This document shows positions 48,029-51,813 of a stretch of 64,000 bases of DNA, in pieces; the stretch's first letter is position 1; each line of letters begins with the position of its first letter. Made by a program: the position numbers and the translations under genes. The notes beneath the pieces are model-generated. The model did not search any database. It saw only the letters and a program-made list of their open reading frames with translations, and was not told where the DNA came from. The stretch is from an uncultured Ectothiorhodospiraceae bacterium (GTDB lineage Bacteria; Pseudomonadota; Gammaproteobacteria; Nevskiales; Oceanococcaceae), in contig CAKZQS010000005.1 of NCBI GenBank assembly GCA_937141935.1, positions 62,001 through 126,000 on the forward strand. Reading direction: 5' to 3'.

Positions 48029-48183
48029 GGCCGGCGGCGGGGACCCCGCGGGTTCGACCACGGCCGTCCGAGGCCGGTGCGGGATGCGCGGCCGAGCGGG
48101 CGGGGAGCCCTGCGCCCACCGCGCCGCGCCACGCTCTTCAACGCTGGCCTGAGACGTGCGCGGCGCGGCGGGCGCGGCTCGAC

Positions 48184-48315
48184 TTAGGCGCCCTCGCGCT
48201 TGCGCTTGCGCGCCTCCTTGCGTGCCAGGTGGCGGAACTCGCGAACGGTCAGCAGCACGCCGACCAGCGTCATCGAGAAGCAAAAGGCTCCAAACATCAG
48301 CAGGTAATCACTCAT
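48184..48315 (-). CDS. 43-aa membrane microprotein (not in supplied ORF track)
   Basis: Translation MSDYLLMFGAFCFSMTLVGVLLTVREFRHLARKEARKRKREGA*; ATGAGTGA overlap with the upstream gene. Confidence 0.65.
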   Translation of the reverse strand: MSDYLLMFGAFCFSMTLVGVLLTVREFRHLARKEARKRKREGA

Positions 48316-48490
48316 TGCGGTCCCCCAGCAGCGCGGACACCTTGAAATAGATGCCAAAGCTCAGAATCGAAGGGATCCACATCGCGGTGAACAGGCCCTC
48401 TTCGCGCTGGCCGCTGAACCACAGCAGGCCGGAGATGGCAAAGGCGACGGCCACCGCAGTGAGTATGAAAACGTCGGACAACCTCAACAT
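48308..48490 (-). CDS. 60-aa two-helix membrane protein
   Basis: MLRLSDVFILTAVAVAFAISGLLWFSGQREEGLFTAMWIPSILSFGIYFKVSALLGDRNE; coupled to the 43-aa ORF. Confidence 0.7.
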   Translation of the reverse strand: MLRLSDVFILTAVAVAFAISGLLWFSGQREEGLFTAMWIPSILSFGIYFKVSALLGDRNE

Positions 48491-48523
48491 GGTCTAACCC
48501 CTTGGCTATGACGGTGGTAGATA

Positions 48524-48585
48524 TGTCTAGACAATGTCTAAGACAGGTGTCACTATCTGACCATGTACAGGTTTTGTCAAGGACA
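48524..48585. promoter_or_regulatory. Palindrome cluster over a divergent promoter region
   Basis: TGTCTAGACA (48524-48533), TGTCTAAGACA (48535-48545), TGTACA (48564-48569), TGTC-AAG-GACA (48575-48585); minus-strand promoter TTGACA-N17-GATAGT at 48552-48580. Confidence 0.7.
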
Positions 48586-48597
48586 GGAGCGCAAGGC

Positions 48598-48867
48598 ATG
48601 AGCCCGCGACCACCCGAAGGCCCGTCGGCCCGATCCACCCCCCTGGAAGTGAACCTGCGCCGCCCCGGGCCGCGCCTGCGCCGCGCGATGCGCCTGGCCG
48701 GCTGGGCGGGCGTACTCGTCGGCGTGGGGGCGCTGGGCGCGCTGGGTTACACGGCCTTGCAGTCGCCCGCGCCGCTGGCGGAGGCTGCGTTGAGCGAGTA
48801 CCGCACGCAGGCGCGCTGGCTGATCGGCGGCCTGATGGTTGCCGCGCTGGGCTTCTTCGACCGCTAG
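48598..48867 (+). CDS. 89-aa membrane protein of unknown function
   Basis: MSPRPPEGPSARSTPLEVNLRRPGPRLRRAMRLAGWAGVLVGVGALGALGYTAL...; divergent from the 60-aa gene; GGAG upstream of ATG. Confidence 0.6.
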   Translation: MSPRPPEGPSARSTPLEVNLRRPGPRLRRAMRLAGWAGVLVGVGALGALGYTALQSPAPLAEAALSEYRTQARWLIGGLMVAALGFFDR

Positions 48868-48977
48868 GCGCGGGCCCCGCCCCTCCCCGCCCCTCCCAGG
48901 CCCGCCCCGGGGTCATCGCAGGGCCCCCTTACGCGGGCTCGGGTCGCGGGCTCGCTGCGCGGCCCTACTGCGCGCCC

Positions 48978-50000
48978 CTATTGCGCCGCGGGGGTCTCCA
49001 GCTCATCCGCCCAGCCTTCCTGCGCCGCCAGGCGCAGCAGCGCGGATTCGACGGTGTGCCGCGCGTGCCCGGCCGAGGCCCGCAGCGAGGCGTGCAGCGC
49101 GGCGTCGTTGGCATTGGCGCTCTCGCACTGGGCCGAATAATCCTCGAAGGCGGCCAGCGCCCCAATCAGATCCGCCAGATGGCGAGGGCATTCACAGCTC
49201 AGCGGGCTGGGCCGCTGGCGCACCTGTTCCAGCAGCGGCGCGGCAAAGCGTGCCGCCGGCGCCTGGGCCTCGCCGGCCGCGCCACGCGCGCTGCGCTGCA
49301 GCCGCAGAACGGCGGCCAGTTCCGCGGGCTCGCCCGGCCGCCGCAGGCAAATCACCCCCGCGTCCAGCAAGCCGCGCAGCGCGCTGCGGGGCGCAAAGTC
49401 ATAGATCAGCAGCGCGCCCGTGGCGACGCCGGCCTGCGTCAGCGCCGCCAGCAGGCTGGCGGCGCGTTCGGGGGTCAGTTGCGGGGCGTTCACGACCACG
49501 GCAATGCCATCGACTGCCGCCGCGGCATCGGGGCTCGCGCCCTCGCGCGACTGCGCCGCGCGCCGGAGCCAGTCGGCCAGTTCGGTTTCGTCCGGCAGCT
49601 GCGCACTCAAGGTGAAATCCGCCTGCTCCAGCAGGCCGGACTGCAGGCCGTCCGCCGGCCCCAGCCACAGCAGCTGCTGCGGTACTCCGGCCGCGGCCGC
49701 CGCCGCCGGGGGCGCGGCCCGGGCACCGGACTTGGCGTGGCTCGCCGGCGGCAGGACCTGCAAGCGCGACCGCAGCGCCGCCTCCGGCAGCTGCGCGATG
49801 TCGCCGATGCGCTCGCCAGCGGCCGTCAGCCGTGCCATCAGCTGCAGGCGCTGGATGTCGGCCTCGGCGTACAGGCGGATGTTGCTCGCGTCGCGCCGCG
49901 GGCTGACCGCCGCGTAGCGGCGCTCCCAGATGCGAATGGTGTCGGCCGAAACGCCGGACAGGGCCGCCGCCTGGCGGATGCGGTAGTGGGCCTCGCTCAT
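48978..50000 (-). CDS. MerR-family regulator of the CarH/LitR type with apparently degenerate sensor domain
   Basis: MSEAHYRIRQAAALSGVSADTIRIWERRYAAVSPRRDASNIRLYAEADIQRLQLMARL; C-terminal half lacks an obvious DxHxxG cobalamin-binding motif. Confidence 0.82.
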   Translation of the reverse strand: MSEAHYRIRQAAALSGVSADTIRIWERRYAAVSPRRDASNIRLYAEADIQRLQLMARLTAAGERIGDIAQLPEAALRSRLQVLPPASHAKSGARAAPPAAAAAAGVPQQLLWLGPADGLQSGLLEQADFTLSAQLPDETELADWLRRAAQSREGASPDAAAAVDGIAVVVNAPQLTPERAASLLAALTQAGVATGALLIYDFAPRSALRGLLDAGVICLRRPGEPAELAAVLRLQRSARGAAGEAQAPAARFAAPLLEQVRQRPSPLSCECPRHLADLIGALAAFEDYSAQCESANANDAALHASLRASAGHARHTVESALLRLAAQEGWADELETPAAQ

Positions 50001-50230
50001 GCCGCCAGGCCCAGGCTGCCCGGCGCCAGCCAGGCCAGGCCCGCCAGCAGCAAGGCCAGCGCGAGCGCGCCGCCGCCCAGCCACTGCGCGCGCCGTCGCC
50101 ATTGCCGGCGGCGGCCCTGGCGCAGCAGCGCCTCCAGCTCATCGCGCGACATCACGTCCCAGTCCCAATGGCTGGTCAGCCGCTCCTTGACCTTGCAGTC
50201 GCTTTCTCGCTTGGGGCGCTCTTCGTCCAT
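49997..50230 (-). CDS. 77-aa single-TM protein coupled to the MerR regulator
   Basis: MDEERPKRESDCKVKERLTSHWDWDVMSRDELEALLRQGRRRQWRRRAQWLGGGALALALLLAGLAWLAPG; ATGA overlap with the regulator start. Confidence 0.65.
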   Translation of the reverse strand: MDEERPKRESDCKVKERLTSHWDWDVMSRDELEALLRQGRRRQWRRRAQWLGGGALALALLLAGLAWLAPGSLGLAA

Positions 50231-50397
50231 GGACCCATCCTAGCACCGCGCCGGGGTCGTGACCAGGGTTTGTCCATTCCTTGTCTACCCTCCTAGGCGC
50301 AGCGCGGCGCCATCCGTCCGGGCCGCGCAAACGCTGTGATAATTTGACGCCACGGCGAAGCACCGCCGCTTTGCCGCCGATTCAGGGACCCCCGCCT

Positions 50398-51402
50398 ATG
50401 GAAGCGCTCGCCGACTTCGCGCTGACCTTTGTCGGCCAGTTGCAGAAGCCCACGCTCGCCTTTTTGCTGGGCGGGATGCTGATTGCGGCGCTGGGCAGCA
50501 AGCTGGTCATCCCCGACGCGGTGTACCGCTTCATCGTGTTCATGCTGCTGATGCGCATCGGCCTGGCCGGCGGCATGGAGATCCGCAACGCGGAGCCGGG
50601 CGACATCTTCCTGCCGGCGCTGATCGCCGTGGCGGTGGGCTGCTTGATCGTGATTCTGGGCCGCGCCGTGCTGCCGCGGCTGCCCGGGGTCAAGGTCGAG
50701 GATGGCATTGCCACCGCGGGCCTGTTCGGCGCCGTGTCGGCCTCGACGCTGGCCGCGGCGATGGTGGTGCTGGATGAGGAGGGCGTGGTCTACGAGGCCT
50801 GGGTGCCGGCGCTGTACCCCTTCATGGATATCCCGGCGCTGGTGCTGGCCATCGTGTTTGCGGGCATCCACCAGCAGCGACAAAGCGGCGCGCACAAGCG
50901 CGTGCGGATCTGGCCCATCGTGGCCGACAGCCTGCGCGGCTCGGCGCTCTCGGCGCTGCTGCTGGGCCTGTTGCTGGGCCTGTTCACGCGCCCTGAGAGC
51001 GTGTTCGACAGCTTTTACGACCCGCTCTTCAAGGGTTTGCTGTCGGTGCTGATGCTGATCATGGGCATCGAGGCCTATGCCCGACTGGCCGAGTTGCGCC
51101 GCGTGGCCCACTGGTTCGCGCTGTACGCCTTCGTGGCCCCGCTGGTGCACGGCCTGCTGGCCTTTGGCCTGGGCACGCTGGCGCACTACGCCACCGGGCT
51201 GAGCCCGGGCGGGGTGATCCTGCTGGCGGTCATCGCCTCCTCCAACTCCGACATCTCCGGCCCGCCCACGCTGCGGGCGGCGATCCCGGCGGCCAACCCC
51301 TCCGCCTACATTGGTTCCTCGACCAGCATCGGCACGCCCATGGCCATCGCCGTGGGCATCCCGCTGTATTTGTCGCTGGGCCACTGGGTGTTCGGGCTCT
51401 AG
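50398..51402 (+). CDS. SbtA-like sodium-dependent bicarbonate transport family permease
   Basis: LAVIASSNSDISGPPTLRAAIPAANPSAYIGSSTSIGTPMAIAVGIPLY, SbtA (DUF897) signature. Confidence 0.9.
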   Translation: MEALADFALTFVGQLQKPTLAFLLGGMLIAALGSKLVIPDAVYRFIVFMLLMRIGLAGGMEIRNAEPGDIFLPALIAVAVGCLIVILGRAVLPRLPGVKVEDGIATAGLFGAVSASTLAAAMVVLDEEGVVYEAWVPALYPFMDIPALVLAIVFAGIHQQRQSGAHKRVRIWPIVADSLRGSALSALLLGLLLGLFTRPESVFDSFYDPLFKGLLSVLMLIMGIEAYARLAELRRVAHWFALYAFVAPLVHGLLAFGLGTLAHYATGLSPGGVILLAVIASSNSDISGPPTLRAAIPAANPSAYIGSSTSIGTPMAIAVGIPLYLSLGHWVFGL

Positions 51403-51489
51403 GTCGATGGCCCACCCCGCCCGCCGCCACCCCGCGCCGCCGGCGATGCCCCTGGGCATCGGCGCGCGCCGCCCACCAGGAGCATCGCT

Positions 51490-51813
51490 ATGACGCACAA
51501 GGCGACCGAGGTCACCATCGTGGCCGAGAAGGTGATCCAGGAGCAGATCGTCGAGATCATCGAGCGCGCCGGCGCCACCGGCTACACGATTCTCGAAGGC
51601 AGCGGCAAGGGCCAGCATGCCCGGCGCACGCACGAGCGGCCCTCGGTGGCCGGTGATGCCTTCGACATCGTCAAGATCGAGGCCATCCTGGGTGACCGCG
51701 CCGCCGCCGAGCAGGTGGCCGACGAGGTGGCGAACACCTTGTTCACCCACTACTCGGGCATCGTCTACCTCGAAGAGGTGGAGATCCTGCGTCGCGCGCG
51801 CTTCTGGCGTTAG
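51490..51813 (+). CDS. SbtB-like P-II signalling protein
   Basis: TEVTIVAEKVIQEQIVEIIERAGATGYTILEGSGKGQHARRT...; PII-like fold directly downstream of SbtA-like gene. Confidence 0.85.
   Translation: MTHKATEVTIVAEKVIQEQIVEIIERAGATGYTILEGSGKGQHARRTHERPSVAGDAFDIVKIEAILGDRAAAEQVADEVANTLFTHYSGIVYLEEVEILRRARFWR

Follow-up and report, generated by a model that had tools for sequence, protein, structure and literature searches.

The window analyzed here, a stretch of DNA of 64,000 nucleotides, contains a short intergenic region crowded with palindromic words, and the question raised by this locus is which regulator reads it and which genes it controls. In agreement with the preliminary description, the region is flanked by small membrane-protein genes: mem2 (48308-48490, minus strand, 60 aa), the predicted target, and mem3 (48184-48315, minus strand, 43 aa), the start of which overlaps the end of mem2, are located on one side, and the divergent gene mem1 (48598-48867, plus strand, 89 aa) on the other. 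The three genes form a conserved trio, and profiles of the relatives of mem1 and mem3 recovered the window proteins with E values of 2.3e-7 and 1.1e-8, respectively. Relatives of mem2 were found 35 times in public genomes (L005-L039), mostly of Gammaproteobacteria, and mem1 is usually located directly upstream of them on the same strand. The trio is common in marine Gammaproteobacteria in this one-strand form, without the operator considered below, and mem2 relatives occur also in Acidobacteria and Planctomycetes.

The four palindromes that had been claimed within about 62 bp are present in the sequence: TGTCTAGACA (48524-48533), TGTCTAAGACA (48535-48545, one base away from the former), TGTACA (48564-48569) and TGTC-AAG-GACA (48575-48585). 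The symmetry of the first two is complete or nearly so. The cluster is real and much denser than expected by chance: it contains eight TGTC, GACA or TGTACA words, whereas other 62-bp stretches of the window reach three at most, and when the intergenic sequence itself was resampled 200,000 times at first order, four such dyads appeared twice. The suggested genome-wide search for TGTCTAGACA-type sites found the exact sequence at a single place in the 3.57-Mb genome and near-matches at about the level of the control, so that a regulon based on this dyad was rejected.

A predicted sigma-70 promoter for mem2-mem3, TTGACA-N17-GATAGT, is present on the minus strand (48552-48580), as had been noted. 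In a consensus scan of region 48100-50450 it was the best sigma-70 match, agreeing with the consensus at 10 of 12 positions; two sigma-70 sites were found in this region versus 0.1 expected. Judged from the position of its -10 box, transcription of mem2 would start near 48545. The TGTACA dyad is indeed located near the middle of the spacer. The same scan revealed no plus-strand promoter for mem1.

What is the functional unit of this region? The minus strand carries two pairs of hexamers at 11-bp spacing (48580-48564 and 48540-48524), and the functional element is probably not a palindrome but a TnnACA hexamer recurring at 11-bp intervals. Predicted operator pair 1 (TTGACA-aaacc-TGTACA, 48564-48580, minus strand) covers the -35 box, which is identical to its first hexamer, and part of the spacer; it is the sole place in the genome with the arrangement TNNACA-N5-TGTACA. 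Predicted pair 2 (TAGACA-ttgtc-TAGACA, 48524-48540, minus strand) is located just beyond the predicted start of mem2. Hexamers of the TGTACA type look palindromic only incidentally. The idea of a multi-site operator gained support, and the palindromes as its unit gave way to an 11-bp direct repeat with a TnnACA core.

Sites from other genomes point in the same direction. We constructed a weight matrix from seven sites located in promoters of related LitR-like MerR genes of seven other genomes, with the own genome excluded, and scanned the window (∼128,000 placements) as well as individual loci of other genomes. Pair 1 and pair 2 ranked first and third in the window (16.5 and 13.4 bits, respectively), and the second rank (15.7 bits) was taken by a predicted operator upstream of the operon encoding the neighboring MerR protein (TAGACA-aggaa-TGGACA, 50271-50287, minus strand), which is extended to 50260 by a third, weaker phased unit; the next other place scored 10.4 bits. 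Resampled 64-kb windows contained 0.06 positions with at least 13.3 bits, and two separate sites of at least 13.3 bits were obtained in the 107-bp region in none of 20,000 local resamplings. Upstream of the relatives' LitR-like MerR genes we counted seven 11-bp-spaced hexamer pairs versus 0.011 expected (maximum of one in 1000 resamplings); the hexamer list for this count, like the R/K alphabet used below, was fixed after inspection of these promoters and of the window. An example is TGTACAAAACCTGTACA, upstream of such a gene in genome G057, which has a spacer identical to that of the window. These TGTACA-like hexamers can be read as TnnACA-N5-TnnACA and then correspond to the core of the 11-bp repeat of CarH. 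CarH operators consist of 11-bp direct repeats, nAnnTnnACAn, that overlap promoters, and CarA and CarH block the promoter (PMC8156234). In the window region, too, 11-bp direct repeats built on TnnACA lie over a predicted promoter of the primary sigma factor.

The pattern TRKACA-N5-TRKACA is present at four places in the own genome versus none for the control: the mem region (pair 2), the MerR operon, a divergent promoter on contig 4 and a place on contig 28. On contig 4, the hexamers TGGACC, TGTACA and TATACA stand in phase (L070:13396-13423) between an operon leading to a cryptochrome-type gene and an opposed gene for a FAD protein. The contig 28 site, an exact TGTACA-N5-TATACA (L098:9235-9251), is found upstream of a gene whose 140-aa product gave a weak match to cupredoxin-like proteins, possibly a further member of the regulon. 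Order-wide the pattern showed no overall excess (55 occurrences versus 76 for the reversed control); what is informative is where the matches are located and how many occur in the own genome, not their abundance across the order.

Comparison of the orthologous intergenic regions, as had been advised, also favors an operator. Among the other 84 genomes of the order, mem2 is present only in G006 and G010, and these two are also the only ones, both of the same order, in which the trio has the divergent layout of the window. The best matrix match of the G006 locus is the mem divergent region, and in 19 kb of G010 the top two matches fall in the mem divergent region and in the promoter of a LitR-type gene; the sites of both genomes are weak, with 10.1 bits and an AT-rich 13.0 bits. 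In more distant bacteria with the same-strand trio, the matrix scan detected no such site nearby. The sole same-genus genome has other genes after typA and no orthologous region. Since mem2 is confined to G006 and G010, and the same-genus genome differs after typA, a close phylogenetic footprint was impossible. Next to the trio, G010 carries genes for a LitR-type MerR protein and a protein with a photolyase FAD domain; the neighbors in G006, recognized by eye, encode a saccharopine dehydrogenase-like dehydrogenase and, apparently, a FAD-dependent oxidoreductase. Linkage of the trio to photolyase or cryptochrome genes is present in G010 and suggestive in G006. In the own genome, a cryptochrome-type gene is located on another contig (contig 4), together with a LitR-type paralogue.

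Taken together, these data make it likely, in our judgment, that the intergenic region is the operator of a LitR/CarH-type MerR repressor that would switch the small membrane-protein genes and would probably be released by light. Which protein would be this repressor? A 340-aa LitR/CarH-like MerR protein is encoded 0.4 kb away (48978-50000, minus strand). It contains a MerR_1 domain (E 3.4e-15), and among solved structures its DNA-binding domain is nearest to those of LitR, CarH and CarA (3whp, 5c8d and 2jml are the top PDB hits of the family profile), the match of the profile to CarH being confined to profile positions 1-64. The likeness to CarH and LitR that had been noticed applies to the DNA-binding domain and does not extend to vitamin B12: the protein has no recognizable B12 domain, no Pfam B12-binding domain being detected at E values up to 5, and the Wx9EH motif was absent from 18 of 18 proteins of the LitR-like group, so that the protein lacks what characterizes class I LitR/CarH proteins (C-terminal B12 domains plus Wx9EH). 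All 18 proteins do contain a CxCPxxL motif. In an alignment with the relatives' LitR-type proteins, C-E-C-P-x-H-L, F-E-x-Y-S and further nearly invariant positions recur in the C-terminal part of the window protein, and the CxCPxxL and FExYS motifs are thereby shared with photolyase-linked LitR-type proteins. In the tree the window protein forms a deep branch beside the relatives' LitR-type proteins, and therefore specificity cannot be transferred from these with certainty.

The MerR gene start is overlapped by a gene (49997-50230, minus strand) whose 77-aa product probably spans the membrane once, and the two genes presumably form one operon; the 77-aa protein could be an anchor or an anti-repressor of the regulator. 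The site at 50271-50287 stands between this operon and an opposite gene pair, encoding an Sbt-family Na+-dependent bicarbonate transporter (50281-51813, plus strand) and a P-II-like protein, and might act on both. A matching site upstream of its own operon argues for the neighboring MerR protein as the likely binder, as had been supposed, and we infer that it would bind the mem operator instead of, or besides, the contig 4 paralogue.

The strongest competing explanation, to which we give a minor but real chance, is that the operator belongs to the contig 4 paralogue and that the neighboring MerR protein is not its regulator. This paralogue adjoins a cryptochrome-type (DPRP) gene, the G010 LitR-type protein groups with it in the tree (87/93 support), and its orthologue group hence adjoins the trio in G010; both paralogues have CarH-like DNA-binding domains, and the TGTACA hexamer of pair 1 is also found at the contig 4 sites. 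The TRGACA hexamers of pair 2, however, recur only upstream of the neighboring MerR operon, whereas the contig 4 and contig 28 sites use TRTACA, and linkage also favors the neighboring protein.

It is improbable that TGTCTAGACA and TGTCTAAGACA are bound by an unrelated dimeric regulator encoded elsewhere, such as a GntR- or TetR-type protein, which would repress mem2 at its start and make the 11-bp spacing incidental. Two (near-)perfect palindromes one base apart, and the uniqueness of TGTCTAGACA in the genome, would suit such a regulator, but it would account neither for the TTGACA-N5-TGTACA pair nor for the matching repeat at the MerR operon, and the similarity to LitR-type promoters of other genomes would be left unexplained; near-matches to the dyad are no more frequent in the genome than the control. 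In the classical mode of MerR proteins a dimer binds in a 19-20-bp spacer and activates by distorting the DNA. We regard as very improbable that a dimer bound to TGTACA in the -35/-10 spacer realigns the promoter elements in this way: the hexamer does lie near the middle of the spacer, but this spacer, with 17 bp, is already optimal, an 11-bp direct repeat is not a classical dyad, and two pairs across ∼57 bp, reaching from the -35 box to beyond the start, fit occlusion better than the spacer action proposed in the preliminary description. Chance clustering in AT-rich intergenic DNA (48% GC versus 71% in the window) is highly improbable, as resampling at local composition gives 1e-5 for the dyads and never produced two matrix sites.

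Under the favored explanation, repression by a LitR/CarH-type protein, each MerR DNA-binding domain would contact one TnnACA hexamer, with hexamers 11 bp apart as for CarH. Because one pair lies over the -35 box and into the spacer and the other just past the start, the bound repressor, which would probably consist of one tetramer or of two dimers acting cooperatively, would occlude and hide the mem2-mem3 promoter, and from its position it could restrain mem1 too. The site at 50271-50287 suggests self-control, by which the window MerR protein would repress its own operon. Both repression and light as the signal are inferred by us from related systems: the repressor would be bound in the dark and released by light, or by a light-linked photo-oxidative signal, as other LitR/CarH proteins are. 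As a 17-bp spacer needs no realignment of the MerR type, and given the parallels with PmlR2, CarA and CarH, dark repression with release appears the most likely mode.

The resemblance to known systems is twofold. With CarH and CarA (class I LitR; Thermus, Bacillus megaterium, Myxococcus) the locus shares several 11-bp TnnACA-core units that overlap a primary-sigma promoter, and theirs are the proteins to which the DNA-binding domain of the window protein is closest. It differs in having two separate pairs instead of three or four tandem units, a regulator without B12-binding domain or Wx9EH, and no carotenoid genes at the operator. Class II LitR proteins recognize T(G/A)TACA-like hexamers with N12 (18-bp) spacing, their regulon includes photolyase, cryptochrome and FolE, and PmlR2 covers the -35 region as well as the region between the start and the coding sequence (PMC9758184). 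The window operator resembles those of PplR1 and PmlR2 of Pseudomonas in its T(G/A)TACA-like hexamers and in the placement of its two sites, of which one overlaps the -35 box and the other follows the start ahead of the coding region; the hexamers are 18 bp apart there and 11 bp apart here, and no T(G/A)TACA-N12-TGTA(C/T)A with this 18-bp spacing was seen in the region. Class III LitR of Burkholderia has a C-terminal part like no known domain and shows a light-dependent absorption change (PMC9758184); the CxCPxxL group may possibly correspond to class III.

Tentatively, and as a possibility that we hold with less than even confidence, the B12-free CxCPxxL group of LitR proteins would use CarH-style 11-bp repeats to control a conserved, uncharacterized trio of small membrane proteins; the CxCPxxL motif may hold a chromophore or metal of its own, and the two paralogues of the genome may have diverged into one that reads TRTACA and one that reads TRGACA. 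The region described here provides a concrete candidate operator for LitR-like regulators that lack B12, and it suggests that the 11-bp binding mode of CarH outlives the loss of B12. It would also be the first regulatory clue for the conserved small-membrane-protein trio, which has been little studied.
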